Shown here piece after piece: positions 10,765-45,728 of a stretch of 51,646 nt of DNA. The stretch is from contig CALUML010000202.1 of NCBI GenBank assembly GCA_944321745.1, positions 1 through 51,646 on the forward strand, given 5' to 3'. Position numbers and translations under genes: made by a program. The stretch's first letter is position 1. The number at the start of each line of letters is the position of its first letter. The stretch comes from an uncultured Bacteroidales bacterium. Lineage in GTDB: Bacteria; Bacteroidota; Bacteroidia; Bacteroidales; Paludibacteraceae. The notes beneath the pieces were generated by a model that worked only from the letters and a program-made list of their open reading frames with translations, had not been told where the DNA came from and made no database searches.

Positions 10765-10852
10765 AAAACGTGCTTACGTTTCACCGAAAACGTGAGCACA
10801 AGTTAGGCAAAACGTAAGCACGAGTTGACCAAAACGTAAGCACGTTTTTATA
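10765..10852. repeat. 22-bp-period array, four units (AAAACGTnnGCAC core)
   Basis: Units start at 10765, 10787, 10809 and 10831, exactly 22 bp apart. Cores resemble AAAACGTAAGCACG. The first is the inverse (AAAACGTGCTTACGTTT), so the ends of the array are complementary and the last runs into TTTTT. It may double as a terminator for the ATPase gene. Confidence 0.9.
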
Positions 10853-10950
10853 GAATAAAAATATTTGTTACACAGGCTGTTTCTCTGTGCCGGACTCTGC
10901 GATGCTCTGTGTAACCAATCCCCAAAAGATTATATTAAAATATTAACGTT

Positions 10951-12087
10951 ATGAATACATTCACCCGTAACATTCTCATTACCGGCGGTGCCGGGTTTAT
11001 CGGTTCGCATGTGGTTCGTTTGTTTGTCAACAAATATCCAGACTACCGCATTGTCAATCTCGACAAGCTCACGTATGCCGGTAATTTGGCCAATTTGAAG
11101 GATGTGGAAGACAAGCCGAACTACACCTTCGTCAAGGCCGACATTTGCGACTTCGACCGCGTGTTCGAACTCATGCAGCAGTACCACATCGACGGGGTCA
11201 TTCACTTGGCCGCCGAAAGCCACGTGGACCGCAGCATCAAGGATCCCTTTACCTTTGCCCGTACCAACGTCTTGGGCACTTTGTCCCTCCTCCAGGCCGC
11301 CAAGCAGTATTGGGACGGCGACTGGGAAGGCAAACGCTTCTACCACATTTCGACCGACGAAGTCTATGGCGCGTTGGAGCTGACGCATCCCGAAGGCATC
11401 GAACCGCCTTTCACCACCACCGCCTCGTCGGCCGAGCACCATCTGGCATATGGCACGGACTTCTTTTACGAAGACACCAAATACAACCCGCATAGCCCCT
11501 ACAGTGCTTCCAAAGCCTCGTCCGACCACTTCGTGCGGGCGTTCCACGACACTTACGGCATGCCGACCATCGTGACCAACTGTTCGAACAACTACGGTCC
11601 TTACCAGTTCCCCGAAAAGTTGATACCGCTGTTCATTAACAACATCCGGCACCGCAAGCCCCTCCCGGTGTATGGCAAGGGCGAGAACGTGCGCGACTGG
11701 CTCTATGTGGAAGACCATGCCCGTGCCATCGACCTCATTTTCCACCAAGGCCGGGTGGCGGACACCTATAACATAGGCGGCTTCAACGAGTGGAAGAACA
11801 TCGACATTGTCAAGGTCATCATCAAGACCGTCGACCGCCTGCTCGGCAACCCCGAAGGCTATTCGCTCGACCTCATCACCTATGTGACCGACCGCGCCGG
11901 GCACGACTTGCGCTACGCCATCGACAGCACCAAGTTGCAGCGCGAACTGGGTTGGGAACCGAGCCTGCAATTTGAGGAAGGCATTGAGCGCACCGTCCGT
12001 TGGTACCTCGACAACCAGGCCTGGATGGACAACATCACCTCCGGCGAATATGAAAAATACTACGAGGAAATGTACAAGGGACGATAA
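10951..12087 (+). CDS. rmlB: dTDP-glucose 4,6-dehydratase RmlB
   Basis: Converts dTDP-glucose to dTDP-4-keto-6-deoxyglucose, step two of dTDP-L-rhamnose synthesis. The Rossmann motif GGAGFIGS is at 12-19, the dehydratase signature STDEVYG at 134-140 with the Asp/Glu pair, and the catalytic Tyr-x-x-x-Lys at Y184/K188 (YSASK). The 378-residue length is slightly above the usual 350, because of an insertion between the signature and the YxxxK, as in other Bacteroidota. It is separated from rmlACD by three unrelated genes. A 9-bp inverted repeat (10867-10875 and 10907-10915) precedes it. Confidence 0.97.
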   Translation: MNTFTRNILITGGAGFIGSHVVRLFVNKYPDYRIVNLDKLTYAGNLANLKDVEDKPNYTFVKADICDFDRVFELMQQYHIDGVIHLAAESHVDRSIKDPFTFARTNVLGTLSLLQAAKQYWDGDWEGKRFYHISTDEVYGALELTHPEGIEPPFTTTASSAEHHLAYGTDFFYEDTKYNPHSPYSASKASSDHFVRAFHDTYGMPTIVTNCSNNYGPYQFPEKLIPLFINNIRHRKPLPVYGKGENVRDWLYVEDHARAIDLIFHQGRVADTYNIGGFNEWKNIDIVKVIIKTVDRLLGNPEGYSLDLITYVTDRAGHDLRYAIDSTKLQRELGWEPSLQFEEGIERTVRWYLDNQAWMDNITSGEYEKYYEEMYKGR

Positions 12088-12105
12088 GGAGCAGATAAGA
12101 ATTGT

Positions 12106-12145
12106 CCAATTCTTTCCAATTTTTTGTAAATTGGAAAGAATTTGG
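12106..12145 (+). terminator. Hairpin between rmlB and the Fic gene
   Basis: An 18-bp inverted repeat with one mismatch (arms CCAATTCTTTCCAATTT and complement, 5-bp loop). It follows the rmlB stop by about 18 bp and lies 32 bp before the Fic start. There is no clean T-run, so it may be a weak terminator or an attenuator. Confidence 0.55.
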
Positions 12146-12177
12146 TGGGTTTGCAAAGTAGGAAAATTAGGATACTG

Positions 12178-13524
12178 ATGATAGAAAATCCTCCTGCCAT
12201 ATCGGAAAAAGAACTGCTGGATGCATACTTTCAATTATATGCGCGTAGGGATAGTAGCGTGGTTCTGTCACAGGTTGAGAAACTGAATGACGAATATGCT
12301 TACTGGAGTGAAGTGAAGTATAAAGTGCTCCCTCCCGGCATTACTCCAAAGCAGATGTGGTGTTATCTGAAAGCGTCACGAGTATCAGGTTATATCTCGG
12401 TATGGCCTAAGTATGGGCTGAAAATGAAATTGACCAATCAGATGCAGAGGATGTGCCATAAGTTTGATATGAATTTGGGTGGTTCGTGGGGGAAAAGTAC
12501 TCTTATCCCGGAAGAGGGCAAGGAACAATATCTGTTAAGTTCGTTGATGGAGGAGGCCATATCGTCCAGTCAGATGGAAGGAGCATCGACCACAAGAAAG
12601 GTGGCTAAGGAAATGCTTCGTAAGAAAGTCAGTCCGAGGGACAAGTCGCAGCGCATGATCTTTAACAACTACCGGACCATCCGTTTTATTGTGGAGAATA
12701 AGCAGACGCCATTGACTGAGGAATTGTTGTTGAAAGTGCATCGCTTGATGACTGAAAACACGTTGGAACATCCGGATCATGCAGGATGTTTCAGGCAAAG
12801 TGATGATGTCGTTGTGGAGGATGGCATAACGCATGAAGTGGTACACACGCCCCCTTGTAAGGAAGACATTCCGGAATTTGTGGCATCACTTTGTGACTTT
12901 TTCAATGAAGAAAAGCCGGAAGTTTTCATACATCCGATTATACGTGGCATTATAATTCATTTTATGGTAGCCTATATGCACCCATTTGTGGATGGCAATG
13001 GCAGGACAGCGCGGGCTTTGTTTTATTGGTACATGCTTCGGCAGGGATATTGGCTGACGGAGTATTTGTCTATCTCCAGGATTATATCGCGTTCGAAAAA
13101 AACTTATGAAAAAGCCTATTTATGTGTGGAAGCGGATGAGATGGATTTGGGTTACTTCATTGTGTATAATTTGCGAGTACTTGATTTGGCTTTTGGAGGG
13201 TTGCAGGAATATATCAATAGGAAATTGTCGCAGAAAAGGCAGGCGCAGGTTTTGTTGCGGATAGGCGGCATTAATGAACGTCAGTCGGAAATAGTGCGGA
13301 TGTATCAAGAGATGCCTTCAGTTGTCTTTACGGTGAAAGATGTTCAGGCGAAATTTGGTATAACCCCTACAACAGCCAAAAGTGATATTGTTGGCTTGCT
13401 GCAGCGGGGCATTTTGGCTGAAATTTCACTGAACAAGGTGAAAAAAGGATATATTAAAGGCGAAAAGTTTGATGAAGTCGTGAATGGAAGTTTTGCCGAA
13501 TCGAATAACCGCTTGATCGAATAA
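12178..13524 (+). CDS. Fic-domain protein with N-terminal Fic_N-like region
   Basis: Likely an AMP-transferring Fic enzyme; the target is unknown. The start is taken at ATG 12178 (MIENPPAISEKE, 448 aa) rather than an upstream TTG. The active-site loop HPFVDGNGR is at residues 268-276 with the catalytic His268. An SSQMEGASTT segment upstream resembles the inhibitory (S/T)xxxE(G/N) helix of self-inhibited Fic proteins, and the C terminus resembles a winged helix (FTVKDVQAKFGITPTTAKSDI). No antitoxin gene is adjacent. It lies in the polysaccharide locus between rmlB and the HU gene and is probably a hitchhiker. Confidence 0.92.
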   Translation: MIENPPAISEKELLDAYFQLYARRDSSVVLSQVEKLNDEYAYWSEVKYKVLPPGITPKQMWCYLKASRVSGYISVWPKYGLKMKLTNQMQRMCHKFDMNLGGSWGKSTLIPEEGKEQYLLSSLMEEAISSSQMEGASTTRKVAKEMLRKKVSPRDKSQRMIFNNYRTIRFIVENKQTPLTEELLLKVHRLMTENTLEHPDHAGCFRQSDDVVVEDGITHEVVHTPPCKEDIPEFVASLCDFFNEEKPEVFIHPIIRGIIIHFMVAYMHPFVDGNGRTARALFYWYMLRQGYWLTEYLSISRIISRSKKTYEKAYLCVEADEMDLGYFIVYNLRVLDLAFGGLQEYINRKLSQKRQAQVLLRIGGINERQSEIVRMYQEMPSVVFTVKDVQAKFGITPTTAKSDIVGLLQRGILAEISLNKVKKGYIKGEKFDEVVNGSFAESNNRLIE

Positions 13525-13740
13525 TCGCATATCAGTTACAAGTTACGAGTTACGAGTTACGAGTTACGAGTTACGAGTGCAGGTGTTGTAGAATTGCGTA
13601 ATCGAGTAATCGAATAACCGCTTTTGCGATTCTGCAGTTCTGCGATTCTGCGCATTAAATGCTTCTGCGAAAATCCGCGTTTATCCGCGTAATCTGCGGG
13701 AAACAAATCTGGAATCCGAAATCTTAAATCTGGGAATCAA
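13525..13740. repeat. Gene-free stretch with AGTTACGAG 9-mers and TCTGCGATT repeats
   Basis: No gene is seen. A run of five to six 9-mers (AGTTACGAG) lies at about 13536-13578, followed by degenerate TTCTGCGAT and TCCGCGT-type repeats up to 13700. Confidence 0.75.
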
Positions 13741-13741
13741 A

Positions 13742-13783
13742 AATGCCCTCCCCCGGAGCGGCAACTCGGTAGGGGAGGGCATT
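13742..13783 (-). terminator. Strong hairpin at the 3' end of the HU-like gene
   Basis: The inverted repeat AATGCCCTCCCC / GGGGAGGGCATT has 12-bp perfect arms and an 18-bp loop, and lies 23 bp after the stop of the minus-strand HU gene. Read on the minus strand it is followed by TTTTTGATT. It could act in both directions between convergent transcripts. Confidence 0.75.
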
Positions 13784-13805
13784 GCGTCAGGAAGTTCCCG
13801 TGTGG

Positions 13806-14246
13806 TTACGGTTCTTCGGGTTCGGTCACTTCACCTTTGGCGGCTTCGGCAATCACTTTTTTGGGCAGCACCTTTTCGTACTTCAAGGTCTTTTCCTGTT
13901 CGCGGAAGGCAATGCCCGGTTTGAATTGCAGGTTCACCTTGGTGATGTTGGTGTACTTGAACGCTTCTTCGGTGTCTGCACCCTCGCTTTCCACTTGGTA
14001 TTGCAGTTTGCCGAAGTCGCCCATGTCCACCATGTCGCCATCGGCCAGGTGGTCGGCCACGTGGCTGCTCAGTTCCGTGAGCACGTTCATCACATCCCCT
14101 GGAGTCAGCGAGCTGGCGTAGGCTATTTCCTTAGCCAGTTTGCGCAGCGTGATGGTTTCGCGCACTTGGGCGCGGGCGTAAAATTTGCGGACTCCATCCG
14201 GGTCTTGCGGGTTGCGTAGTTGATTTACGCTGTACTTGATTGACAT
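13806..14246 (-). CDS. HU-family DNA-binding protein (TIGR01201-like)
   Basis: A 146-residue nucleoid-type protein. The HU fold spans about residues 30-120 (ETITLRKLAKEIAYASSLTPGDVMNVLTELSSHVADHLADGDMVDMGDFGKLQYQ). It lacks the canonical HU proline arm sequence and has the extended C-terminal tail (VLPKKVIAEAAKGEVTEPEEP) common in the Bacteroidota branch. These proteins are frequent near polysaccharide loci and repeats. It is the only minus-strand gene inside the polysaccharide locus, with its own promoter and terminator. Confidence 0.93.
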   Translation of the reverse strand: MSIKYSVNQLRNPQDPDGVRKFYARAQVRETITLRKLAKEIAYASSLTPGDVMNVLTELSSHVADHLADGDMVDMGDFGKLQYQVESEGADTEEAFKYTNITKVNLQFKPGIAFREQEKTLKYEKVLPKKVIAEAAKGEVTEPEEP

Positions 14247-14333
14247 AGTTGTAAAAGTTTAAAAAAGTTGGACAAAAAGTTAGTTTGAAACACTTGTTGG
14301 GTACCCATGCCATCCTGTTTCCGAATGACGATG

Positions 14334-14365
14334 CAAAGATATAGTAAGAATCTTGAATGAGCAAA
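14334..14365 (-). promoter_or_regulatory. Bacteroidota-type promoter of the HU-like gene
   Basis: On the minus strand TTTG (14362-14365), a 20-bp gap, then TATCTTTG (14334-14341) match the -33/-7 pattern. Transcription would start near 14327, giving an untranslated leader of about 80 nt. Confidence 0.75.
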
Positions 14366-14712
14366 CAATTGTTTGTAGTTTAACTTTATTTTGCATTGTT
14401 GTTTTGCAGGTATCGCTGAAATATGGCGTCTTGAGATCTATGTATCAATATATGAGTTGGATAAACCGATGCGTGCTTCCGGAAATATGGGGAGGATCTC
14501 TGAATTGCGGGTAAGGCACAAACAAAGATCGATGCAGGATGAAATAAAATCGTATTTGGAGCTATATTGTGTGATTGTTGTGCTGCTTATTGTGGTTCGT
14601 TGTGTTATTATGTGATTATTTCGGGCTTGTTGAAGGATGGGGTATGGCTCGCTTCAGGCAGATGGGGAATTGTTCTGTAAATCGCGTGCTGTAATTAAGT
14701 TTGCAGGTGTGT

Positions 14713-14811
14713 GCCCCTGATTTGAGACAAAAACAACGTGGATTTGCCCCTGATTTGGAACAAAACCGGCATGAATTTGCCCCTGAATTGAACCCAAATC
14801 GGTCATTAGAC
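14713..14811. repeat. 33-bp-period repeat, three units
   Basis: GCCCCTGA-type unit starts are at 14713, 14746 and 14779, exactly 33 bp apart. Units share GCCCCTGATTTG and an ACAAAA element. The last unit merges with the left arm of the long palindrome. The weak open frame through it on the minus strand is a by-product of 33 being a multiple of 3. Confidence 0.88.
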
Positions 14812-14966
14812 CATTCAGGGAATGTCTTTGCCCGCTTTCCGTCTTGTGGCGGCGTTTTTTGCTGCCTTTTCTCTCGACATAGCCCGCTATGCCTTCGAGA
14901 AAAGCCATCAAAAACCACTCGCCACAAGAACAGAAATCAGACAAAGCCTAATGACCGATTTGGGTT
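14791..14966. repeat. Long imperfect palindrome (MITE-like)
   Basis: Outer arms of 19 bp (14791-14809 and 14948-14966) are perfect reverse complements. Nested arms at about 14843-14876 and 14896-14928 pair over some 30 bp with few mismatches. The right outer arm (CCTAATGACCGATTTGGGTT) occurs once more with one change at 38766-38785. No transposase is encoded; it would form a large hairpin as DNA or RNA. Confidence 0.88.
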
Positions 14967-15013
14967 GAAACAAAAGACTATTTTTGTGGCTGTAAAAACT
15001 TAACATTCAGGTT

Positions 15014-16361
15014 ATGTTTCAGCGAAAGATAATACATAGGTTGGAAGAGTGGAGGCGAGATCCCGGTCGGAAGCCATTAATACTGCGTGGAGCAAGGCAA
15101 GTGGGAAAGACAACGGTGGTAAATGAATTTGGTAAGCAGTTCGACAATTATTTATATTTTTTAATATGGAGGATGCGAGCCATGCGAGGTTGTTTGAACT
15201 GGAGGTGCCACTCCTTGATTTGATACCTCTGCTTTTTTCGGCGCAAGGGGTGATGCGTCAGCCGGGTGATACGCTTATTTTATAGATGAAATACAAAACT
15301 CACCCAAAACAGTGGCTTTGTTGCGCTATTTTTATGAACAGACACCCGAATTACATGTCATTGCAGCTGGCTCTTTGCTTGAAAATTTGGTAGATGTACA
15401 TGTCAGTTTCCCGGTAGGGAGAGTGCAGTATCTGGCACTCCGCCCTTGTTCGTTTTATGAGTTTCTCGGTGCGTTGGGCAAAAGTAATTATTGGGTCATC
15501 TTGTGTGGGAAACCGGAATATACAGTACCATTCCATACGGAATTGTTGCATTATTTCCAGCAATATCTTTTGGTAGGGGGGATGCCTGAAATGGTGAACC
15601 GATATGCCGAGACGCGTGATTTGCTTGCGTTGGACGATTTGTTTGAAACGTTGGTGCAGGCGTATAAAGATGATGTGGAAAAATATGCCCAAGGCAATAA
15701 ATTGGTCGAAACGGCATGTTTCATTCTTTCGTATGGTTGGGCGTATGCGGGCGAAACGGTGACGTTGGGCAATTTTGCTCATTCCGCCTACAAGGCTCGT
15801 GAAGTCGGGGAGGCATTTCGCTTGTTGGAGAAAGCGATGTTGTTGGAGCTGGTTTATCCTACTTCATCGGTGCTTTTGCCTATCGTCCCGGAAACGAAGC
15901 GGATGCCTAAGTTAATATGGTTTGATACCGGCATGGTCAATTATCAGGCGGGCATTCGTAAGGAAATTATAGGTGCGACGGATATACTCGATGTGTGGAA
16001 AGGGCATGTGGCGGAACAGGTAGTGGCGCAAGAACTATTGGCTTTGACCGACAAGGTGGGACAGAAGCGAGCCTTTTGGGCGAGAAGCAATAACGGAGCA
16101 GAGGTCGATTTTGTGTATCATTTTGACGGAAATCTTTATCCGATTGAAGTGAAAAACGGTCATAATGCCCATTTGCGTTCCGTGCAGGAATTTATCAGTC
16201 GTTCACTGGTTGATGTGGCTGTGAGAGTGTGGTCGGGTTCTTATTCAATCGATACTGTGCGGACTTCTTCCGGTAAACCATTTCGGCTGATTAACCTGCC
16301 TTTTTATTTGTTGGGTAGTCTGGAGCATGTGTTGAATGAGGTAGTAGGGAGTGGCAAATAA
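15014..16361 (+). pseudogene. DUF4143-type AAA ATPase, disrupted by two frameshifts
   Basis: The first part (15014-15160) gives MFQRKIIHRLEEW...LILRGARQVGKTT, a normal start with Walker A. The middle (about 15165-15285) reads in another frame as MEDASHARLFELEVPLLDL. The rest (from about 15280) gives FIDEIQNSPKTVALLRYFYEQ, HVIAAGSLLEN, the Walker B and sensor, then a full DUF4143 domain ending near 16361. The breaks fall in T runs, at about 15157-15162 and 15278-15281. Repairing both gives a protein of about 449 residues. Decay or homopolymer sequencing error could explain it. It belongs to a different branch from the ATPases at 9.5 and 37.6 kb. Confidence 0.85.
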
Positions 16362-16615
16362 GAGGAGAGCGTGCTTCATGTTCTTGTGGTATTTGATTTC
16401 GAGAGGTTTAAATGATGCTTGTACGCCAAACATTTTGCATTTTCCGACAAATCGTGTCTCCAAGTACTTCTGGCGGGGATTGTCATTTTGGGAATAGGTA
16501 TGAGTTGTGCTTTGCTCTAAATTTAGGGCTCTTGTTTGGTAAATGTCTTTTTTGTTTTAGATATTTGTTATGCCGTGTTGGTAAGTTTTGTTAGTTGTAT
16601 ATATTGGATAGTAAG

Positions 16616-17782: not shown

Positions 17783-17792
17783 TTGTTTGTCT

Positions 17793-18911: not shown

Positions 18912-18953
18912 AAGAGGATTTGCTATTGCTGAATTGTTATTGTAATAAGTGTT

Positions 18954-30058: not shown

Positions 30059-30199
30059 TGCTTTTGTTATGCTCATTAGCCGAGTGTGGGCAACAAAGCG
30101 GAGTTGATGGGGAAGTGGAGACTCCGTTTGTGCCAAAATGGCAGTTTGGTAACATGCTGGCAATCTATGCTTTCGCGTTTTTAATGGTAGCTTGGGAGA

Positions 30200-30309
30200 G
30201 ATACTATAGTAAGTTGTAAAAGATACTATAGAAAGTTGGATGATTTACTATAGAAGGTGAGGTGACTTTCTATAGAAAGTTGAGGCACTTTCTATAGTAA
30301 ATTTTGTCA
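30200..30309. repeat. 22-bp-period array, five units (CTATAG palindromic core)
   Basis: CTATAG centres fall at 30204, 30226, 30248, 30270 and 30292, each exactly 22 bp apart. The fourth unit has the full palindrome ACTTTCTATAGAAAGT; the others are degenerate versions. Spacers are not conserved. It lies about 140 bp after a glycosyltransferase stop. Confidence 0.93.
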
Positions 30310-30339: not shown

Positions 30340-30545
30340 AGATTTGTTTCCCGCAGAACCGCAGAACCGTTAAATCGCAGAACCGCAAAAACGCTTATTC
30401 AGTTATTGGATTAATCGGTTATTCGGTTAAGCGCTTGAGCGGTTATGCGATTACGCAACACCGCAAGCTCATGTTTTGGTAGTTTTACGGTGTAAGGTCG
30501 CTCTAATTTTAGTGTTTTTGTATGGCAAAGTCGCTCTAATTTTAG
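30340..30545. repeat. Gene-free stretch: AACCGCAG-type repeats, then a 33-bp-period pair
   Basis: Between 30345 and 30475 there are degenerate 8-9 bp units (GCAGAACC, TTATTCGG, TTATGCGA). From 30464 a 33-bp unit follows. The second and third copies start at 30497 and 30530 and share GTCGCTCTAATTTTAG; the copy at 30464 is degenerate. No gene is seen from 30059 to 30669. Confidence 0.8.
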
Positions 30546-31689: not shown

Positions 31690-32802
31690 ATGAAATTGCT
31701 TGTAGATGCCCATTGTTTTGATTACCGGACTACGGAGGGCATTAATACCTATTTGAAAGGATTGTACGGTGAGTTGGTGGGAATCGCGCCTGATATCGAT
31801 TTTTATTTTGTGGCGCAAAATGTGGGCAGAATCAAAGCCTTGTTTGGGGAAGCGGCAAATGTACATTATGTGCCTTTGACCTCGCAGAATAAGATTTACA
31901 GGCTGCTATTCGAGATTCCTGCCATTGTAAAAAAATTAGGCATCGAGTGGGCGCACTTTCAATACACTTCGCCGTTGATAAAGAATTGTAAAACCATAGT
32001 TACTTTGCATGATATCTTGTTTGTGGATTATCCGCAAATGTTTCCGTGGCGTTATCGGTTGGTTAAAGGGGCCATGTTTAAATTGTCAGCCAAGCGGGCT
32101 GATTTGTTGTTGACCGTATCGGACTATTCGCGGCGGCAGATTGCCAAGCATTATGGGATATCCGCAGAGGAAATTGTGGTTACTCCGAATGCGGTATCGG
32201 CTGACTTCGTTCAAGTTGATGCTGACGAGGCGGCAAAATTTGTGCAAAGCCAAGGCATTGACAAATACTTGCTTTATGTGAGCCGCATAGAACCTCGTAA
32301 AAATCAATTGGCCGTATTAAAAGCATTTCATGAATTGGACCTGTGGAAGAAAGGGTATCATTTGGTATTCATAGGGCGGAAAACATTGCCCACGCCCGCT
32401 TTTGACCAATATTATGAAGCGTTGGCTGATAAGGAGAAAGAACAGGTGCATGTGTTTAACCAAGTTTCGTATGCAGATTTGAAATTGTGGTATAAAGCGG
32501 CTTCTTTGTTTGTATATCCGGCATTGGCGGAGGGGTTTGGTATTCCTCCCATTGAGGCGGGGGCGGTTGGTGTGCCTTGTGTTTGTTCAAATCGGACGGC
32601 CATGGGGGATTTTACTTTTTTTGAAGATAATTTACTTGACCCGGAGGATGGTGATGCGTTAAAGAAAGCGATAGTGAGAAACTTGGAGCAAAAGGATGCC
32701 GACAAATTAAATGAAATAAGTCAGCAAGTGCGCTTGAAATATAATTGGCATCATATAGCGGAAACTCTGTATCGTGCACTGAATCGCTTGAGCATTGCGT
32801 AA
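31690..32802 (+). CDS. Glycosyltransferase family 4 (mannosyltransferase-like)
   Basis: From ATG 31690 (MKLLVDAHCFDYRTTEGINTYLKGLYGEL) it has 370 residues; ATG 31678 four codons earlier is also possible. Motifs are TIVTLHDILFVDYP, TVSDYSRRQI, VTPNAV, YLLYVSRIEPRKNQLAVLKAF and the donor-site YPALAEGFGIPPIEAGAVGVP. The YVSRIEPRKN form is common in GDP-mannose or related users, but the sugar is not certain. It is followed by 270 bp of simple repeats. Confidence 0.92.
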   Translation: MKLLVDAHCFDYRTTEGINTYLKGLYGELVGIAPDIDFYFVAQNVGRIKALFGEAANVHYVPLTSQNKIYRLLFEIPAIVKKLGIEWAHFQYTSPLIKNCKTIVTLHDILFVDYPQMFPWRYRLVKGAMFKLSAKRADLLLTVSDYSRRQIAKHYGISAEEIVVTPNAVSADFVQVDADEAAKFVQSQGIDKYLLYVSRIEPRKNQLAVLKAFHELDLWKKGYHLVFIGRKTLPTPAFDQYYEALADKEKEQVHVFNQVSYADLKLWYKAASLFVYPALAEGFGIPPIEAGAVGVPCVCSNRTAMGDFTFFEDNLLDPEDGDALKKAIVRNLEQKDADKLNEISQQVRLKYNWHHIAETLYRALNRLSIA

Positions 32803-33060
32803 TCGTTGAATCGCTTAACCGCTTAATCGCTTAATCGCTTAACCGCTTAATCGAATAACCGTTTTTTGCGGTTCTGCGGTTCTGCAGTTCTGTAGTTCTG
32901 CAGTTCTGCGGTTCAGCAATTCAGCAATTCAGCGATTCAGCAATTCAGCGATTCAGCGGTTCAGCAATTCAGCAATTCAGCGATTCAGCGGTTCAGCAAT
33001 TCAGCAATTCAGCGGTTCCTCGATTCAGCGGTTCCTCGATTCATCAACCCCAAACGAGCA
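32803..33060. repeat. Dense 8- and 9-bp repeat block
   Basis: About 255 bp built of CGCTTAAT/CGCTTAAC 8-mers (32808-32860), TTCTGCGGT 9-mers (32875-32915), and TTCAGCAAT/TTCAGCGAT 9-mers (32918-33045). No gene is present. The DUF1972 gene begins 15 bp after it. Confidence 0.9.
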
Positions 33061-37367: not shown

Positions 37368-37523
37368 GTGGGCAGGGGTGAGGCGATCGAAGTGCCTGGC
37401 AATATGCGGACATTCATTTTTTTCTTTATGTGTCAATCGCATGGATAATCGCCTTTATGGGAAATACACTTTTCGAAAGGTGAAAAAACTTGTGTAATTC
37501 GCTTTTTGAAAAGTGTTTTTTGC

Positions 37524-37531
37524 TACATTTG
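37524..37531 (+). promoter_or_regulatory. -7 element upstream of a DUF4143 ATPase, next to an inverted repeat
   Basis: TACATTTG matches the -7 consensus; no well-spaced TTTG is found. Upstream, ACACTTTTC (about 37467-37475) and its complement GAAAAGTGT (37508-37516) form an inverted repeat, an operator-like layout similar to that of the ATPase at 9.5 kb. Confidence 0.5.
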
Positions 37532-37558
37532 CAAACGAATGATATATATGTTTTGATA

Positions 37559-38764: not shown

Positions 38765-38864
38765 AGCCTAATGACCGATTGGGGTTAAACGTAAGGTGTG
38801 TACGAAGGGAAGAACCGATTTCCTAAAAAACATTTGAAAAAGGAGCATTCAGGTAGAAATGTGT

Positions 38865-38872
38865 TACTTTTG
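38865..38872 (+). promoter_or_regulatory. -7 element of the M23 lipoprotein gene
   Basis: TACTTTTG lies 24 bp before the ATG. No TTTG at the expected distance was found (the nearest is 28 bp upstream). Confidence 0.5.
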
Positions 38873-38896
38873 CAGGCATGGTTTTGAAAGGGAAGC

Positions 38897-40219
38897 ATGA
38901 AGAAAGCATGGATCATAGGCATGGCGTGTGGCTTGCTACTGACGGCATGTGGCAAGAAACAGGCCGGTGAACAAGACTTCGAAGAGGCCGCTGAAGCAGA
39001 AGAAGTGGTTGCACAGCCGGAGTACCGGTATGGCATTTGTGTGGATTCGCTCGATATGGAGGCCTATCAAGTGAAGCGGGGCGATACGTTTTCAAAAATA
39101 TACGACGACCTGGGCTTCACAGCCGTGGAGGCCGACCGCATCGTGCGGGCATCGGCGGAACTGCTGCCGCCCCGCTACCTGCTGCCGGGCATGGAGTATT
39201 GGGCATTCACCACGCGCGACAGCGTGCCACGGGTGGCGCACGTGGTGTTCGGCCGCTCGAAGACGGACTTCGTGGTGTTGGGCTTCCCCGGCGACAGCGT
39301 GACGGTGCGTACTTTCACCAAGCCCGAAACCCTGCGGCGGCTCTACGCCGAGGGTACGGTGGAAACCAGCCTGTGGGATGCCATCGTGGGCAACGGCACC
39401 GACCCGATTATCGCCCTCATGCTGTCCGACATCTATGCCTGGCAGGTGGACTTCTTCGGCGTGCAGCCGGGCGACGGCTACAAGGTGATTTATCAGAAGG
39501 CTTACGTGGACGACACGGTGCCGCTGGGCGTGCGCTCCATCGAGGGGGCGGTGTTCACCCACATGGGGCGCGACTACGTGGCCATCCCTTTCGTGCAGGA
39601 CAGCGCGCGCATCTTCTTCGACCCTGAGGGCAACAGCATGCGCCGGGCGTTCCTCAAGTCGCCGCTGGACTTTTTCCGCATCACGTCGCGCTTCACCAAC
39701 TCGCGTTACCACCCGGTGCTCAAACGGTACCGGGCGCACCACGGCGTGGACTACGCTGCTCCCATCGGTACGCCCGTGAAGAGCATCGGCGACGGGCGGG
39801 TGGTGGCCAAGGGCTATCAGCCGCGCGGGGGAGGGTATTACCTCAAGGTGAAGCACAACTCCGTGTACACGACCACCTATATGCACCTGAGCCGCTATGC
39901 CAAGGGTATTAACAAGGGTACACGCGTGCAGCAGGGGCAGGTGATTGCCTATGTGGGCTCCACGGGACTTTCCACCGGGCCGCACCTTGACTTCCGTGTG
40001 CAGAAGAACGGCTCGTACATCAACCCCCTCACCATGGAAGCCCCGCCCGACATCCCGCTGCACGAGGAGCTGCGCGACAGCTTCAACGTGGTGAAGGCCC
40101 AACTGCTGGAGGAAATGGCTACCCGCCATGCCGCCCTGCATCCCGCCCCGGCGGACAGTGCGGCGGTGGACTTGCCGGGGAACGTGGCGGGCAAGCCTGT
40201 GGATGGCTTTGGGGCTTGA
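38897..40219 (+). CDS. M23-family peptidase lipoprotein (LytM domain)
   Basis: A predicted envelope lipoprotein of 440 residues, signal MKKAWIIGMACGLLLTAC with lipidated Cys18. An Opa/LysM-like segment (YQVKRGDTFSKIYDDLGF) lies near residues 55-75. The LytM domain has its first metal motif H282-x-x-x-D (HHGVDYAAP in context) and HLDFRV at 363-368, where Asp replaces the second His of the usual HxH. That replacement is seen in other Bacteroidota members, so activity cannot be excluded. Probable role: cutting or regulating cuts in peptidoglycan cross-bridges. Confidence 0.92.
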   Translation: MKKAWIIGMACGLLLTACGKKQAGEQDFEEAAEAEEVVAQPEYRYGICVDSLDMEAYQVKRGDTFSKIYDDLGFTAVEADRIVRASAELLPPRYLLPGMEYWAFTTRDSVPRVAHVVFGRSKTDFVVLGFPGDSVTVRTFTKPETLRRLYAEGTVETSLWDAIVGNGTDPIIALMLSDIYAWQVDFFGVQPGDGYKVIYQKAYVDDTVPLGVRSIEGAVFTHMGRDYVAIPFVQDSARIFFDPEGNSMRRAFLKSPLDFFRITSRFTNSRYHPVLKRYRAHHGVDYAAPIGTPVKSIGDGRVVAKGYQPRGGGYYLKVKHNSVYTTTYMHLSRYAKGINKGTRVQQGQVIAYVGSTGLSTGPHLDFRVQKNGSYINPLTMEAPPDIPLHEELRDSFNVVKAQLLEEMATRHAALHPAPADSAAVDLPGNVAGKPVDGFGA

Positions 40220-40236
40220 CGTGATGCGCGGGAATT

Positions 40237-40854
40237 TTATTCCACTTCGGTGCGGTCGGGGTCGCCCGGCTTCCTGACGCGTTTGACCGTGTGCTTGATT
40301 TTGCCGATGAAGAAGTTAATCTCCAGGCTCGATTCCGTTTCGGATGTTTCCAGATCGGGCATGACGATGCTGGAGAGCATTTCCCCCAAGCGTTGCAGGC
40401 CGGACTGCTGCCTCTCGTGGTTTGTCTCGTTGTGCAGGGTGCGGAGTTCCTGTTTGAGTTGGCGCACGGTGGCGAAGGTTTCGATGATGGCCAAGGTGGC
40501 TTGCGTGGCTTGCGGGCTCTTCAATATGGTGGCAAGCATGTATAGGCCTTTCTCGGTAAAGGCTTTGGGTCGTACGCGGGACTTGGGCGATATGTTTGCG
40601 ATCAAATTTTTTGACCGCAAATCGGCAAGTTCCTGTTTTTCAATTTCAAATACGTATCCGCCCGGGAACTTTTCCTGATTGTTGCGCACGGCCTGGTTCA
40701 CCTCTCTTGTCTCCACTCCGTACAGTTCTGCCACATCGGCATCCAGTATCACCTGGCAGTCTCTGAGCACGATGATTTTCTGCTGCACTTGCCCGAAGAG
40801 GCTGGCGGCAGGCAAGGGTGTGCGTTTCCCTCTTTTGTCTAAGTTGTTGTCCAT
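40237..40854 (-). CDS. ORF6N domain-containing protein
   Basis: 205 residues from MDNNLDKRGKRTPLPA. The ORF6N domain fills residues 25-115: IIVLRDCQVILDADVAELYGVETREVNQAVRNN, FPGGYVFEI, RPKAFTEKGLYMLATILKS. The domain is common in phage and Bacteroidota and is thought to bind DNA. A coiled-coil-prone stretch (IIETFATVRQLKQELRTLHNET) follows. It converges with the M23 gene, the stops lying 17 bp apart. The longer frame upstream is out of family and excluded. Confidence 0.92.
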   Translation of the reverse strand: MDNNLDKRGKRTPLPAASLFGQVQQKIIVLRDCQVILDADVAELYGVETREVNQAVRNNQEKFPGGYVFEIEKQELADLRSKNLIANISPKSRVRPKAFTEKGLYMLATILKSPQATQATLAIIETFATVRQLKQELRTLHNETNHERQQSGLQRLGEMLSSIVMPDLETSETESSLEINFFIGKIKHTVKRVRKPGDPDRTEVE

Positions 40855-40873
40855 GTCTGTATGGTGTTTGTGT

Positions 40874-41215
40874 TCATTCCCATTGGCGGAGCGGGCAACT
40901 GGCATTGGTGGCATCATCGGTGGTGTCGTCGGACGGGTCGAGTACATCCGTGTATTCCGGATGCCGCTTGAACTCGGCCACGGCGAACGAGCATACGGGC
41001 ACGATGCTTAGCCCCTCGGCGCGGGCGTATGCCACGGCGGCCTCGACCAGCCGATGGGCAAGGCCTTTGCCGCGCTGGCTGGGGTGTACCAGGGTGTGGT
41101 CTATGCGGATGGTCTTTTCCTTTACATATACGTAGGTCAGTTCCCCCACGTTGTGTCCGTTTTCCATGGCTAGGAACGCGCCTTGGCCGGTTTGTCTGTT
41201 GTGCCGGATGTCCAT
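40874..41215 (-). CDS. Small GNAT-like N-acetyltransferase (YidJ/YjdJ type)
   Basis: 113 residues. The acetyl-CoA-binding segment IDHTLVHPSQRGKGLAHRLVEAAVAYARAEGLSIVPVCSFAVAEFKRHPEY is the core of the short N-acetyltransferase family related to human GNAT-like NATD1. The substrate is unknown. It lies 19 bp upstream of the ORF6N gene on the same strand and probably shares its transcript. A terminator for the preceding minus-strand operon is just upstream. Confidence 0.9.
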   Translation of the reverse strand: MDIRHNRQTGQGAFLAMENGHNVGELTYVYVKEKTIRIDHTLVHPSQRGKGLAHRLVEAAVAYARAEGLSIVPVCSFAVAEFKRHPEYTDVLDPSDDTTDDATNASCPLRQWE

Positions 41216-41289
41216 TGGTTTACCTGATTGATGGGATGTCGCTCACAAAGATAAAGTTTTTTCGGGAATGGCACTGCCGTGTCATGGGA

Positions 41290-41332
41290 AATAAAAAACC
41301 GGGAAACGGCTTCATGTGCCGCATCCCGGTTT
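41290..41332 (-). terminator. Rho-independent terminator
   Basis: On the minus strand AAACCGGGA / TCCCGGTTT arms with an inner CGGC/GCCG pair, followed by TTTTTTATTT. It lies 20 bp after the stop of the glyS 3' fragment and about 280 bp after the lipoprotein operon. Confidence 0.85.
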
Positions 41333-41351
41333 CCTGTTGTATGGCGGGCGG

Positions 41352-41514
41352 TCAGACCTGTCCCATGATTTTCCTGAACAAGTTCTTCATGTTCACCTCC
41401 CGGTCGATGAGGTCGTGGAGGCGGTCGATGCTGACGCGTTCCTGCTGCATGGTGTCGCGGTGGCGGATGGTGACGCAGTTGTCGGTGAGCGTGTCGTGGT
41501 CCACGGTGATGCAG
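41352..41514 (-). pseudogene. Duplicated 3' end of glyS (C-terminal 50 codons)
   Basis: Bases 41371-41514 match glyS 43935-44078 with only about three differences and no gaps. On the minus strand it reads [20 protein letters not shown] and on to [12 protein letters not shown]-stop, against KIMD-stop in the true gene. Sequence upstream of the match is unrelated, so no complete protein is possible. It is followed by a good terminator, whereas the true glyS end is not. Confidence 0.93.
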
Positions 41515-41614
41515 GTATTCGCAGGCTCGCCCGCACCCCGTGCCGAGGCACATGAGGGAGTTGCGCGGAGCTTGGCTGTAGTGGAGGAAGGGGTCTATGA
41601 GCATTGTGCGGGGG

Positions 41615-42325
41615 TTAGGGTTGTGGTTCGTGTTGCCGCCTTTTGGCCTCGACGATGCTGTCCATTTGTATGGAGAACCAGTCGTCGTTCACGAAGAGGG
41701 CTTCCACCCGCAGGCTGTCGGGGGCCAGGACGAGGTTGTCGCGCACGGTCCTGATGAGGCGTTTGCTTTGCCTGCCGCAGAAGCCGGGCCAGAACACGAC
41801 TACGGTGTAGTCGTTCCCTCTGCCCGGGTCGAAAGTCAGGGGCCGACCTTGCGCATCGCGTATGTGGGGCAGCAGCGCGGGCAGGGACACCAGGGTGTCG
41901 GGCGGAGCGACGCTGGTCGGGGGAAAGGTGCAGAAGGCATCATTCATGTTCCAATTCATGTTGGGGAAGCCCTCGGCGTAGCAGTTGAGGTGGTATGACA
42001 CGAGCCGCCCTGCGCGGTCGAAGTACATGGCCTGCAGCATTTGCAGGTGGTTGTTCACGGCATCGGCCAGTTGGTGTTGTTCGGTGCTGTCCTTGCCTTG
42101 TACCTGCGCGTAGAACGTGTCGATGACGTGGCCGATAAAGGCCGTGTCGAGTTCGTGCCACGGCTCGCCCTCCAGCCCGAAGCGTGCCAGTGTTTCCGTG
42201 CGCTGTTCCGGGGTGATGGGGTCGTACTCGGTCTTGAAGCCGTATATTTTCACGATCAGGCTGTCGCAGCCGCCCAGCAGGAGCAGCAGGGGGAGGAGGA
42301 TGATGGGGAGGGGTTTCTTTGTCAT
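41615..42325 (-). CDS. Thioredoxin-fold-like lipoprotein, degenerate active site (copy 1)
   Basis: 236 residues. Signal MTKKPLPIILLPLLLLLGGC with lipidated Cys20. The middle section HLQMLQAMYFDRAGRLVSYHLNCYAEGFPN is nearly identical in the upstream paralogue. The C-terminal part YTVVVFWPGFCGRQSKRLI (from about 173) lines up with TlpA-type FWASWCGPC, but only the first Cys (183) remains and the second is Gln186. A redox-inactive or binding role is likely. Its start overlaps the paralogue's stop (ATGA), so translation is coupled. Confidence 0.8.
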   Translation of the reverse strand: MTKKPLPIILLPLLLLLGGCDSLIVKIYGFKTEYDPITPEQRTETLARFGLEGEPWHELDTAFIGHVIDTFYAQVQGKDSTEQHQLADAVNNHLQMLQAMYFDRAGRLVSYHLNCYAEGFPNMNWNMNDAFCTFPPTSVAPPDTLVSLPALLPHIRDAQGRPLTFDPGRGNDYTVVVFWPGFCGRQSKRLIRTVRDNLVLAPDSLRVEALFVNDDWFSIQMDSIVEAKRRQHEPQP

Positions 42326-43062
42326 ACGTCAGTGTTGTCTGGGGTTTGTTGCCCTTGCGGGGCGTATTGTTTCTGCTTCATCTGTACGATGCTATCCATT
42401 TTTACAAGGAACCAGTCGTCGTTGACGAAGAGGGCTTCCACCCGCAGGCTGTCGGCGGCCAAGGGGAGGTTCCTCTGCACGGTCCTTATAAGGCGTTTGC
42501 TTTGCCTGCCGAAAAAGCCGGACCAGAACACCACCACGGTGTAGTCGGCCTGGGGGGAGGGGGTGGCAGATATGGGATTGTCATGTGTGTCACGTATGTG
42601 GGGCAGCAGCGCGGGCAGGGGCAGCAAGGTGTCGGGCGGGGCTGCACTTGAAGGGGGAAAGGAGTTGAACGCGCCGTATTTGTTCCATTTCAGGTTGGGG
42701 AAGCCCTCGGCGTAGCAGTTGAGGTGGTACGACACGAGCCGCCCCGCACGGTCGAAGTACATGGCCTGCAACATTTGCAGGTGGTTGTTCTGGAGTTTGG
42801 CCTGCCGTTCCCACCGCAAGGAGTCGGTCGTGTCCAATTTGGTGTAGAAGGAGTCCATCAGGTAGCAGGTGAGCGAGGTCTCGTCCAGTTCGTACCACGG
42901 CTCGCCCTCCAGCCCGAAGCGTGCCTGTATCTTTTCCCGGTTGTCATCATGGGCGGGCACGAACTTCGTATCCAGGCCGTACAGCCAGATGGCAATGGCG
43001 TTGCAGCCGCTTAGCAGGAACAGCAGGGGGAGAAGAAGGAGGATAGGGTAGGGGTTCTTCAT
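42322..43062 (-). CDS. Thioredoxin-fold-like lipoprotein, active site lost (copy 2)
   Basis: 246 residues from MKNPYPILLLLPLLFLLSGC, lipidated Cys20. It is a paralogue of the gene downstream, with the same FGLEGEPW, NNHLQMLQAMYFDRAGRLVS and RVEALFVNDDWF segments. At the thioredoxin-type motif it reads FWSGFFGRQ (179-187), with both Cys replaced. A longer frame opening at 43113 runs over the intergenic hairpin and is not used. Confidence 0.8.
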   Translation of the reverse strand: MKNPYPILLLLPLLFLLSGCNAIAIWLYGLDTKFVPAHDDNREKIQARFGLEGEPWYELDETSLTCYLMDSFYTKLDTTDSLRWERQAKLQNNHLQMLQAMYFDRAGRLVSYHLNCYAEGFPNLKWNKYGAFNSFPPSSAAPPDTLLPLPALLPHIRDTHDNPISATPSPQADYTVVVFWSGFFGRQSKRLIRTVQRNLPLAADSLRVEALFVNDDWFLVKMDSIVQMKQKQYAPQGQQTPDNTDV

Positions 43063-43079
43063 GCAGGATGTTACATTGG

Positions 43080-43126
43080 ACTTGCGGGATGCACGGGTTT
43101 TGTTTTGTTTCATGCATCCCGCAAGT
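43080..43126 (-). terminator. Hairpin between the thioredoxin-like gene and the lipoprotein pair
   Basis: Perfect 14-bp arms ACTTGCGGGATGCA / TGCATCCCGCAAGT with a T-rich loop, starting 8 bp after the upstream stop. On the minus strand no U-run follows, so it may be an RNA processing or attenuation hairpin rather than a full stop. Confidence 0.6.
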
Positions 43127-43133
43127 GTTGTTT

Positions 43134-43775
43134 TTAGTGTTTCAAAAGTTCCGCAATGGGTTCATAGCCTTTGAGCGGCGTGTCGGGATGGTCGAAGTCC
43201 TTTTCCGCCACGCCGACCGTGTTGCCCCATTGGTCCATGACAATGGAAACGCCCATAGGTGTCTGCCGGTTGTACGCTTCGTCATCGGGGTTCACGGCGC
43301 AGAGGAAACGGTAGTATTTGTCCCGCGCGTTTCTTCCCCGGATGTCGATGATTTTCCGAATGGGGGCTTGCAGGCTCTTGTATGCCTTAGGCGAAAAGAG
43401 CGAGTCGGTGATAATAACCGCATTCAGCGTGTTGTGATACACCGTGTCAAGCATGGCGGCGGTGGGGTTGATGGAATAGTAAGTTTCGTTTTCTTCGTCC
43501 ACCAGCAGCAGGTAAAATGCCGCGTCATACTCTTGGGCAAGGCGGACAATGTCGGGGAGGCGCGCTTTGCAGTGTGTGCACCAATCGGCATAGGAATAGA
43601 ACAGCGTTCGTTCCTTACCCGAATGGCGTGCCAGGCAACGGGCCTGCTCCACGTCCACTGTACGAAAATCGGAATGGGTACTTTTAGGCAATTGGCATTC
43701 GTCCCATTGAGCATGGAGAGTGGAGGCTGTAAGGCAGGCTCCTATTATCCATAAGCAAAAGGGTATGGTTTTCAT
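43134..43775 (-). CDS. Periplasmic thioredoxin-like protein with WCTHC site
   Basis: 213 residues. Signal peptide MKTIPFCLWIIGACLTASTLHA with probable cleavage before Gln23. The thioredoxin motif WCTHC is at 65-69 in the context RTLFYSYADWCTHCKARLPDI. The C-terminal section (CAVNPDDEAYNRQTPMGVSIVMDQWGNTVG) resembles the cis-Pro region. It is probably an envelope disulfide reductase or oxidase. It is the promoter-proximal member of a set with the two Cys-poor paralogous lipoproteins. Confidence 0.85.
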   Translation of the reverse strand: MKTIPFCLWIIGACLTASTLHAQWDECQLPKSTHSDFRTVDVEQARCLARHSGKERTLFYSYADWCTHCKARLPDIVRLAQEYDAAFYLLLVDEENETYYSINPTAAMLDTVYHNTLNAVIITDSLFSPKAYKSLQAPIRKIIDIRGRNARDKYYRFLCAVNPDDEAYNRQTPMGVSIVMDQWGNTVGVAEKDFDHPDTPLKGYEPIAELLKH

Positions 43776-43858
43776 AGCATGTCTTGGGATTGTTATAAGA
43801 TGAATGGTTCAAAGTTACGAAATTATTTAATCGTGCCCGTTGGCGGTTGGATTGCAAT

Positions 43859-43917
43859 ACGCGAGGCGCAGGAGGGGGGAAGCCGTGGGGCAATCCCCCT
43901 TTTGCGTCTTCGCGTAT
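43859..43917 (-). terminator. Hairpin directly after glyS
   Basis: Arms TACGCGA..GCGCAGGAGGGGGA and complement, with an imperfect middle. The stem is GC-rich but lacks a T-run on the minus strand. Confidence 0.55.
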
Positions 43918-43921
43918 GTGG

Positions 43922-45466
43922 TTAGTCCATAATCTTCCTGAACAAGTTCTTCATGTTCACCTCCCGGTCGATGAGGTCGTGGAGGCTGTCAATGCTGACG
44001 CGTTCCTGCTGCATGGTGTCGCGGTGGCGGATGGTGACGCAGTTGTCGGTGAGCGTGTCGTGGTCCACGGTGACGCAGAAGGGCGTGCCCACGGCATCCT
44101 GGCGGCGGTACCGCTTGCCGATGGAGTCTTTCTCGTCGTACACGCAGCGGAAGTCGAACTTGAGCGCGTCCATGATTTCGCGTGCCTTTTCGGGCAGGCC
44201 GTCCTTTTTCACCAGGGGCAGGATGGCGGCTTTCACCGGGGCGAGCACGGGCGGCAGTTTGAGCACCACGCGGCTGTCGCCCCCTTCGAGCTGCTCTTCG
44301 CAGTAGGCGGCGGACATGATGGAGAGGAACATGCGGTCCACGCCGATGGAAGTCTCGATGACGTAGGGCGTGTACGACTGGTTGAGTTCGGGGTCGAAGT
44401 ATTTGATGTTCTTGCCCGAATACTTCTCGTGGCTGCTCAGGTCGAAGTCGGTGCGCGAGTGGATGCCTTCCACTTCCTTGAAGCCGAAGGGCATTTCAAA
44501 CTCGATGTCGGTGGCGGCGTTGGCGTAGTGCGCCAGCTTGTCGTGGTCGTGGAAGCGGTACTTGTTGTCGCCCAGCCCGAGTGCCTTGTGCCAGGCGAGG
44601 CGGTGTTCTTTCCAGTAGGCGAACCACTTCATTTCGTCGCCGGGGCGCACGAAGAACTGCATTTCCATCTGTTCGAACTCCCTCATGCGGAAGATGAACT
44701 GCCGTGCCACGATTTCGTTGCGGAACGCCTTGCCTATCTGCGCGATGCCGAAGGGGATTTTCATGCGGCCCGTCTTCTGCACGTTGAGGTAGTTCACGAA
44801 GATGCCTTGCGCCGTTTCGGGGCGGAGGTATATCTTCATGGCACCGTCGGCGGTGGAGCCCATTTCGGTGGAGAACATGAGGTTGAACTGCCGCACGTCG
44901 GTCCAGTTCTTCGTGCCGCTGATGGGGTCCACCACGTCGTAGTCCATGATGATGGCTTTCAAGCCGGGCAGGTCGTTTTCGTTCATGGCCTTGGCGTAGC
45001 GGGCGTGTATCTCGTCGCGCTTGGCCTGGTGTTCGAGCACGCGGGGATTCGTCTGGCGGAACATGGCTTCGTCGAAGCTCGCGCCGAACCGCTTGGCGGC
45101 CTTCTGCACTTCTTTTTCAATCTTTTCATCGTATTTGGCCATGAGGTCCTCGATGAGCACGTCGGCACGGTAACGTTTCTTGCTGTCGCGGTTGTCGATG
45201 AGGGGGTCGTTGAAGGCGTCCACGTGCCCGGAAGCTTTCCACGTGGTGGGGTGCATGAAGATGGCCGCGTCGATGCCCACCACGTTTTCGTGGAGCATCG
45301 TCATCGAGTCCCACCAATAGCGTTTGATGTTGTTTTTCAGTTCCACGCCGTTCTGCCCGTAGTCGTACACGGCACCCAGCCCGTCGTATATTTCACTCGA
45401 CGGGAACACGAAACCATACTCCTTGCAGTGTGCAACGAGCTTTTTGAATACATCTTTCTGTGTCAT
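43922..45466 (-). CDS. glyS: Glycine--tRNA ligase, dimeric type
   Basis: Charges tRNA-Gly with glycine. From ATG (45466) MTQKDVFKKLVAHCKEYGFVFPSSEIYDGLGAVYDYG it has 514 residues, normal for the single-chain alpha2 class II enzyme of Bacteroidota. Class II motifs are visible: motif 2 IAQIGKAFRNEIVARQFIFRMREFEQMEM, and motif 3 in the YTPYVIETSIGVDRMFL region. The C-terminal anticodon-binding domain ends ..[12 protein letters not shown]. The frame's 28 upstream codons lie in the promoter region and are excluded. The last 50 codons are duplicated 2.5 kb downstream. Confidence 0.97.
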   Translation of the reverse strand: MTQKDVFKKLVAHCKEYGFVFPSSEIYDGLGAVYDYGQNGVELKNNIKRYWWDSMTMLHENVVGIDAAIFMHPTTWKASGHVDAFNDPLIDNRDSKKRYRADVLIEDLMAKYDEKIEKEVQKAAKRFGASFDEAMFRQTNPRVLEHQAKRDEIHARYAKAMNENDLPGLKAIIMDYDVVDPISGTKNWTDVRQFNLMFSTEMGSTADGAMKIYLRPETAQGIFVNYLNVQKTGRMKIPFGIAQIGKAFRNEIVARQFIFRMREFEQMEMQFFVRPGDEMKWFAYWKEHRLAWHKALGLGDNKYRFHDHDKLAHYANAATDIEFEMPFGFKEVEGIHSRTDFDLSSHEKYSGKNIKYFDPELNQSYTPYVIETSIGVDRMFLSIMSAAYCEEQLEGGDSRVVLKLPPVLAPVKAAILPLVKKDGLPEKAREIMDALKFDFRCVYDEKDSIGKRYRRQDAVGTPFCVTVDHDTLTDNCVTIRHRDTMQQERVSIDSLHDLIDREVNMKNLFRKIMD

Positions 45467-45516
45467 ATCGTTTGTCCGTTTGAGGTTTGACTTGCTTTTT
45501 GTTGATAATAACGGCG

Positions 45517-45524
45517 CAAAGGTA
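45517..45524 (-). promoter_or_regulatory. -7 element of glyS
   Basis: TACCTTTG on the minus strand, 51 bp before the start codon. The best upstream element is a TTG 23 bp away. Confidence 0.55.
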
Positions 45525-45628
45525 GTGATTTCCGTTGAAATGGCAGGCAATCGGGGCGGTAAACTCGCGTGAATCCGACGCTCGCGGTCGTGCGGTCATC
45601 AGCCCGTCTTTTTGTTTTTCTCGGCATG

Positions 45629-45728
45629 AAGTTATCGTCCCACCAAGGTGGCACAGCTGTACCACCCGGGTGGGACGGCTGTACCACCAAGGTGGGACGG
45701 TCGTACCACCCGGGTGGGACGATAACTT
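45629..45728. repeat. 22-bp-period array, four units (CCACCnnGGTGG palindromes), inside a 16-bp inverted repeat
   Basis: CCACC-nn-GGTGG cores start at 45640, 45662, 45684 and 45706, exactly 22 bp apart. The two central bases alternate AA, CG, AA, CG. The array is enclosed by perfect 16-bp arms AAGTTATCGTCCCACC (45629-45644) and its complement (45713-45728). It lies between divergent glyS and the MATE gene. Confidence 0.95.

Follow-up and report, generated by a model that had tools for sequence, protein, structure and literature searches.

The window analysed here, a stretch of 51,646 nucleotides, is contig C202 of a draft genome (G000; 2.66 Mb, 207 contigs, 89% complete) of an uncultured Bacteroidales bacterium. 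It harbours three intergenic arrays of short tandem units, array 1 to array 3, which are the subject of this report. The features of these arrays, none of them assigned to a strand, are the following:

10765 to 10852, no strand: array 1, AAAACGT repeated every 22 bp, the first of its four units inverted and the other three direct
30199 to 30309, no strand: array 2, CTATAG-centred, five 22-bp units
45629 to 45728, no strand: array 3, four 22-bp units with inverted ends AAGTTATCGTCCCAC / GTGGGACGATAACTT, forming the core of an element of family 3
45637 to 45720, no strand: the eight half-sites of array 3, GTNYCAC / GTGRNAC, at intervals of 11 bp and separated by 4 nt
45722 to 45765, no strand: array 3, probable right arm, degenerate: two units in 22-bp register with the arm consensus, weak in this copy

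An initial annotation of the window had claimed exact 22-bp steps for the three arrays, and the recomputed core positions are in agreement with it. AAAACGT lies at 10765, 10787, 10809 and 10831 in array 1 (three steps), CTATAG at 30204, 30226, 30248, 30270 and 30292 in array 2 (four steps), and CCACCnnGGTGG at 45640, 45662, 45684 and 45706 in array 3 (three steps). The four units described for array 1 stand for AAAACGT; the longer core AAACGTnAGCAC is present only three times, and the first unit carries it inverted, as GTGCTTACGTTT at 10770. The ends of array 1 pair as a hairpin followed by a T-run, similar to a terminator. In array 3, GTNYCAC occurs at 45637, 45659, 45681 and 45703, and GTGRNAC at 45648, 45670, 45692 and 45714; the left side has one arm unit at most. 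Rfam gave no match within the window, array 1 had no match in plasmids or phages, and the search of viral contigs with three patterns returned 0 stretches.

The cores had been described as locus-specific, with the copying of a local seed as one of two options. Instead, they are specific to families, and the families are dispersed. The family of array 3 (family 3) occupies 14 distinct places in G000 (E < 1e-10), three of them fragments at contig ends, array 2 has relatives in contigs C12, C60 and C26, and array 1 has one relative, in C117. The family-3 unit reads GTNYCAC-N4-GTGRNAC-N4 (7 + 4 + 7 + 4 = 22), with opposite half-sites alternating one helical turn apart. Fifty-two family-3 cores, collected with a pattern that tolerates mismatches, can each be read as eight half-sites with 4-nt spacers, the last few fitting poorly. 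Extraction by the ends gave 22 elements, of which 21 are exactly 95 bp long (four units) and one has 73 bp (three units). Similar to miniature inverted-repeat transposable elements (MITEs), the family has inverted ends GTTATCGT, is non-coding and is present as dispersed copies, of 95 bp, in the 14 places mentioned.

Tracing array 1 led to family 4 (ACTGCCCACAGTTATGGG...), also with four 22-bp units, which occupies about 37 distinct places in G001, a second genome of the genus (among the 40 of 524 first-look candidates that were scored). Its distinct matches measure 88 bp in 13 of 16 cases; the other three measure 66 bp because the pattern started or stopped one unit inside a longer array. The unit of a 21-bp family is AAACTAA-GTC-TTAGTTT-TTAC, and that of a 23-bp family ACCCTTT-TGCCT-AAAGGGG-TACG. 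Families also combine in frame: in a third genome of the genus, G002, where loci were found by the family-3 pattern, 12 of 32 cores consist of one unit of a TTTTCAC...GTGAAAA family and three family-3 units in the same frame. Homogenisation of units within arrays is weak, their similarity exceeding that of shuffles in three of six tests (below 0.05); for this analysis and that of the 21-bp flanks, 7-mer and coding 21-bp repeats were removed by a motif filter.

The period was surveyed in 732 kb of the three genomes: 452 kb of G000 (the window and 20 stretches, each 20 kb long and together 15% of the genome, taken from contigs C1-C15), 140 kb of G001 and 140 kb of G002. Further sequence comprised 100 kb of G066, from another family, 20 stretches with a total of 342 kb (935 bp of G003, the remainder from 19 other genomes) and, as a later addition, 359 kb of G003, which belongs to the same genus as G000. 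The samples were not blind: the C8 stretch of G000 was positioned so as to cover a known array, and the contigs of G001 and G002 were mostly known from array searches, so that densities are biased. At a palindrome cut of 0.68, which drops genuine members including arrays 1 and 2 of the window, the three genomes contain 22 palindromic-unit arrays, three at 21 bp, 14 at 22 bp and five at 23 bp (2/6/3 in G000, 1/4/2 in G001 and 0/4/0 in G002), and no array has another period within the range of 16 to 60 bp. No palindromic-unit array was detected in the 100 kb of G066 or in the 342 kb, no 21-23-bp array was present in the 359 kb of G003, and Markov-resampled copies gave 0 arrays at the same threshold (one replicate for each set other than G003). 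Below the cut, the three genomes hold 19 further 21-23-bp arrays (16 in G000, one in G001 and two in G002), and four of the 16 in G000 resemble 7-mer or coding repeats; one non-palindromic 21-bp array was found among the other genomes. The arrays have at least ten different cores.

The sampled sequence supports the initial annotation in that the periods form a sharp peak near two helical turns (21-23 bp), with cores that are unrelated and mostly palindromic. The annotation's rule of multiples of 11 (22, 33 and 66 bp) fails: of the 22 palindromic arrays, 8 have 21- or 23-bp cores, and two 22-bp arrays of the family of array 2 contain single steps of 21 bp. In place of this rule stands a single ruler, about two helical turns long, which has 21- and 23-bp variants.

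Also supported is that spacing can outlive sequence change: at orthologous loci, the frame can persist under changed cores. At the locus of array 3, the 15 outermost bp at either end are identical in G001, and the frame of four units is kept; G000 and G001 differ at 22 of 100 positions, all between positions 15 and 84 (0-based), and all four units have CCACC..GGTGG-type centres in G000 and CCACG..CGTGG-type centres in G001. Between C3 of G000 and C15 of G001, the spacers and part of the ends have changed and the frame is kept. G000 and G002 share the site at C2 with different cores, half-site consensus and phase being intact. Other orthologous pairs (C112/C163, C13/C174 and C8/C44) are identical or almost identical. 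At C118 of G001 and C7 of G000, arms lie on both sides and a core is present in G001 only. G002 is without the element at the window locus of array 3 and at C13, with junctions too diverged to read.

Besides the cores, the elements of several families possess phased arms. In the flanks of family 3 in G000, autocorrelation is highest at lag 22 (0.329) and second at lag 44 (0.317; mean 0.265). The corresponding values are 0.333 and 0.300 for family 3 in G001 (mean 0.260), and 0.466 and 0.384 for family 4 (mean 0.265). The flanks of three 21-bp arrays, all of one family, also have an arm period of 22 (lag 22 0.532, lag 21 0.329), and lag 23 is highest in the flanks of eight 23-bp arrays. An arm consensus was built from the 88-bp family-4 copies and the family-3 copies with at most two mismatches. 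Outward, the family-4 arm units read AAAAcTT.TgCtCAcaA.tGGG, AAAACaT.TgC.cA.aAa..GG and AAAACaT.TgCg.a.aAaa.gg, then nearly nothing, and those of family 3 read GATAACTTtatgC..., CAc.Acttc.tgc... and cAcGACttt..gc...; by eye, an ACTT-n-TGC-like motif is common to both. The arms are phased and not palindromic, and their 22-bp-phased sites point inward from both sides.

By sequence, family 3 was found in three of 61 genomes, all of the same genus, and not in G003. Of 393 genomes of the order, five have the half-site lattice (G000 and, from three other families, G066, G140, G223 and G239), and none has the reversed lattice pattern. Over genome contigs, the exact pattern returned 40 stretches, 36 in CASEAJ (G002), two in CASFUX (G001) and two in other metagenome-assembled genomes, one of a Candidatus Azobacteroides and one of a Bacteroidales bacterium, with four-unit arrays beginning GTTATCGTCCCAC. 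One subfamily in G066 lies within a repeat of about 450 bp that has 22-bp arms of its own. A non-coding G066 repeat around a family-3-like array was located as follows:

L239 1278 to 1863, L245 1222 to 1808 and L249 1283 to 1724: repeat with a promoter-like TTG...TATCTTTA (by eye) and a hairpin TGATAAAA...TTTATCA

The gaps that hold 23 of the arrays, typed with a crude gene caller, were tandem in 12 cases, divergent in five, convergent in two and unassigned in four, and, in a search that covered 30 of the 47 flanking frames, the neighbours are ordinary genes. HU-HIG domain proteins (PF18291) adjoin arrays in two different families, in L225 and L237. As a partner of the arrays this domain was rejected, since a search of 20 of the 35 flanking frames in G000 gave 0 cases, and the L225 and L237 cases are taken as coincidence. 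Array 1 has a counterpart at the matching place in G001, in a shorter form of about two units. The window stretch from 9314 to 10924, holding an AAA_14/DUF4143 ATPase gene (9498 to 10751), is missing from that place in G001, which has about 99 bp instead. The DUF4143 ATPase was rejected as an array partner, since G001 has the shorter array 1 without the gene-bearing stretch.

The explanation that we prefer, at a probability of roughly 0.45, is that the arrays are dispersed and probably once mobile non-coding elements, whose half-sites would be bound by a phase-sensitive protein. In family 3, the best studied, each of the four 22-bp units of the core holds two 7-bp half-sites in opposite orientation, which places a half-site at every helical turn along the same face of the DNA, and the protein may bind these half-sites side by side and cooperatively. 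Such binding would keep the spacing at 22 ± 1 bp while the bases drift. Dispersal and inverted ends suggest mobility, and the elements may have spread within the genome as non-autonomous repeats, as MITEs or REPINs do; units may be exchanged in frame through slippage or gene conversion. Of the two options in the initial annotation, we favour the second, phased sites for dimeric proteins. Directly observed are the period and frame, the inverted ends, the phased arms, the dispersal, the in-frame chimeras and the change of cores at orthologous loci; the protein, its cooperativity and the mobility are what we infer.

Several observations weigh against these once mobile, protein-bound elements. No protein was identified. 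The intergenic DNA adjoining array 3 differs between G000 and G001 as well (8 of 45 positions on the left, 7 of 45 on the right; 1 of 180 on the gene side), so that the core has changed only moderately faster. Neither a target duplication nor a clean empty site was seen at the two G002 loci, whose junctions are diverged. The arm signal is weak for family 3 in G002 (lag 22 0.270 vs mean 0.259, tied with lag 12) and for 15 other 22-bp arrays (lag 22 0.288, lag 21 0.280), and arm conservation fades outward with no sharp edge, unlike a transposon end. The number of units is variable: in the family of array 2, the arrays of G000 have 5, 5, 7 and 4 units and that of G001 has 4, a few steps measuring 21 bp, and the 23-bp arrays have up to 8 copies. 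The four-unit rule is valid for families 3 and 4, and not for all families. The half-site statistics given below are also affected by the relatedness of the copies.

Other explanations were weighed on the same evidence. It is unlikely that the arrays are never-mobile host binding sites for a chromosome-wide DNA-binding system, kept by selection. The site conserved at C2 of G000 and in G002, with its half-site consensus and phase, is what such a system would leave, as are conservation that is highest at the centre and the lack of a common neighbour among the flanking genes searched. However, the distribution is patchy, G003 having neither family 3 nor any 21-23-bp array in 359 kb, at C13 and the window locus the element is present in one species and absent from another, and many unrelated families occur within one genome. 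Slightly less likely are miniature transposons with two ends back to back, each end carrying a number of phased sites for the transposase, on the model of IS21 or of Tn7, which has 22-bp TnsB sites. Inverted ends, inward phased direct repeats on both sides and dispersal would agree with them, and in IS21, repeats 23 bp apart wrap a tetramer (PMC10122671). Nevertheless, searches limited to two transposase families found no rve domain in G000 (89% complete), G003 or G066 and no Y1 transposase in G000, and the elements have no sharp outer edge and no target duplication was seen.

We consider it very unlikely that the arrays are transcribed RNA hairpins, be it terminators, 3'-end stabilisers or structured small RNAs. 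Array 1 has its hairpin and T-run, a promoter-like stretch was seen by eye in one G066 repeat, and the RNA folds are strong (z -8.79, -7.95, -4.74 and -7.48); the folds are a consequence of the palindromes and discriminate little. Compensatory covariation, as expected of a structured RNA, was absent, with local pairs below shuffles and a global pairing z of 0.3. Neighbours show less agreement at the two variable positions of the half-sites than shuffles do (z -3.8 and -3.0), and the outermost pair shows more (+3.9), in 36 of the 52 cores (leaving out those with more than two mismatches, L121 and L123), and these z-scores are inflated by treating related copies as independent. Gap types are mixed (12 tandem, 5 divergent and 2 convergent of 23), the window is without an Rfam match, and arrays of other loci matched only microRNA models below threshold. 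Negative half-site covariation, mixed gap orientations beside ordinary genes and non-palindromic phased arms favour protein half-sites over RNA stems. Least probable of all is a mutational product without function, in which slippage and quasi-palindrome template switching make and homogenise the units. The similarity within arrays in three of six tests and the single three-unit element speak for it; however, slippage would not keep 22 bp in otherwise diverged arms, nor a length of 95 bp in all but one of 22 elements, nor identical outer ends.

Among known systems, plasmid iterons are phased sites of about 22 bp that are bound side by side, in one cluster beside a rep gene. The arrays differ from these, being dispersed beside ordinary genes. 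The nearest published element found is the BrickBuilt MITE of Porphyromonas gingivalis, a 23-nt tandem repeat with 19 loci per genome (PMC4596501). Similar to the arrays, BrickBuilt belongs to the Bacteroidales, is intergenic and species-restricted, has inverted-repeat ends and breaks assemblies. Its unit consensus AGAYCATARTATCCTCTCRTRTG is however not palindromic, it forms one family with 1 to 22.8 copies, and its leader and tail reach 285 and 318 nt (PMC4596501). The BrickBuilt 23-nt consensus with leader and tail was not encountered in the arrays, whose cores differ in sequence and symmetry as judged without alignment. Repetitive extragenic palindromic (REP) sequences, REPINs and bacterial interspersed mosaic elements (BIMEs) are likewise short extragenic palindromes of high copy number, clustered in alternating orientation (PMC3733652). 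They differ in having 20-40-bp units without a fixed two-turn lattice and in their link to RAYT transposases, by which REP elements are thought to be moved (PMC3733652). A RAYT/REPIN system was rejected, as the Y1 transposase PF01797 has 0 matches in G000 (the profile matched 5 of 14 genomes).

The ends of IS21 are the best known counterpart of the two-turn ruler, with sites 23 bp apart and paired half-motifs one turn apart that point inward (PMC10122671). They differ in having two repeats per end beside istA/istB, and they are not scattered, gene-free palindromic arrays (PMC10122671). IS21 ends were the first guess for all arrays and were rejected: the search, made for rve (PF00665) and not for IstB, found none in G000, G003 or G066 (present in 5 of 8 genomes searched), and with no rve gene found, IS21 membership fails. 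A literature search, with subscription journals mostly outside its coverage, found no publication on such arrays.

The observation in the initial annotation holds and extends well beyond the window. We regard the arrays as a variant of the dispersed palindromic repeat; the chance that they form a geometry-defined class is fair. In its full form the proposal of such a class is possible and, on balance, doubtful. The class would be defined by geometry and not by sequence, as a one-turn half-site lattice with phased arms in which a protein system keeps the phase. Half-site sequence would be rewritten per family and, at single loci, in concert, with many families per genome and a lattice recurring across Bacteroidales families. 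Repeat families are usually defined by sequence; here the spacing is conserved and the sequence turns over, once beneath identical outer ends. The arrays may therefore serve as a natural test of selection on DNA geometry, and they suggest a new DNA-binding or mobilising system in the Bacteroidales. Half-site lattice and phased arms are usable as search patterns.

The window also contains longer-period repeats, which the initial annotation had grouped with the arrays:

14712 to 14802, no strand: 33-bp repeat TGCCCCTGATTTGAAACAAAAACAACATGAATT, three copies, judged outside the class
30474 to 30545, no strand: 33-bp duplication, two copies, judged outside the class
1 to 210, no strand: 66-bp repeat containing a CGTAGGGCGTTGCCCTACG hairpin, considered to be another kind of dispersed repeat

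TGCCCCTGA lies at 14712, 14745 and 14778, in 33-bp steps, and this repeat is the sole 33-bp array in the 452 kb of G000 scanned. It looks like a transposon end, for which no support was found, and in plasmids it had only short, weak Aeromonas matches. GTCGCTCTAATTTTAG is present in only two copies, at 30497 and 30530, and CGTTGGCCTTG occurs at 1, 67, 133 and 199, in 66-bp steps, at a locus that holds 3.2 copies. Long-period repeats in the G000 sample have 66, 67 and 69 bp. With 33 bp seen once and long periods of 66, 67 and 69 bp, the 33- and 66-bp repeats look like other, unrelated repeats. Repeats like the 66-bp one are found in L060 (12886-13065, 5461-5589 and 10016-10304) and in G001.

Elsewhere, L046 has an above-threshold Rfam match at 2949-3022 to FopS, a paralogous Bacteroidetes small RNA family (65.5 bits, cut-off 56). 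Near the end of the window, 69-bp tandem repeats at 50885-51562 overlap open reading frames on both strands. Dense 8-bp and 24-bp intergenic repeats lie at 32800-33043; they have relatives at 30351-30429 and elsewhere in G000.

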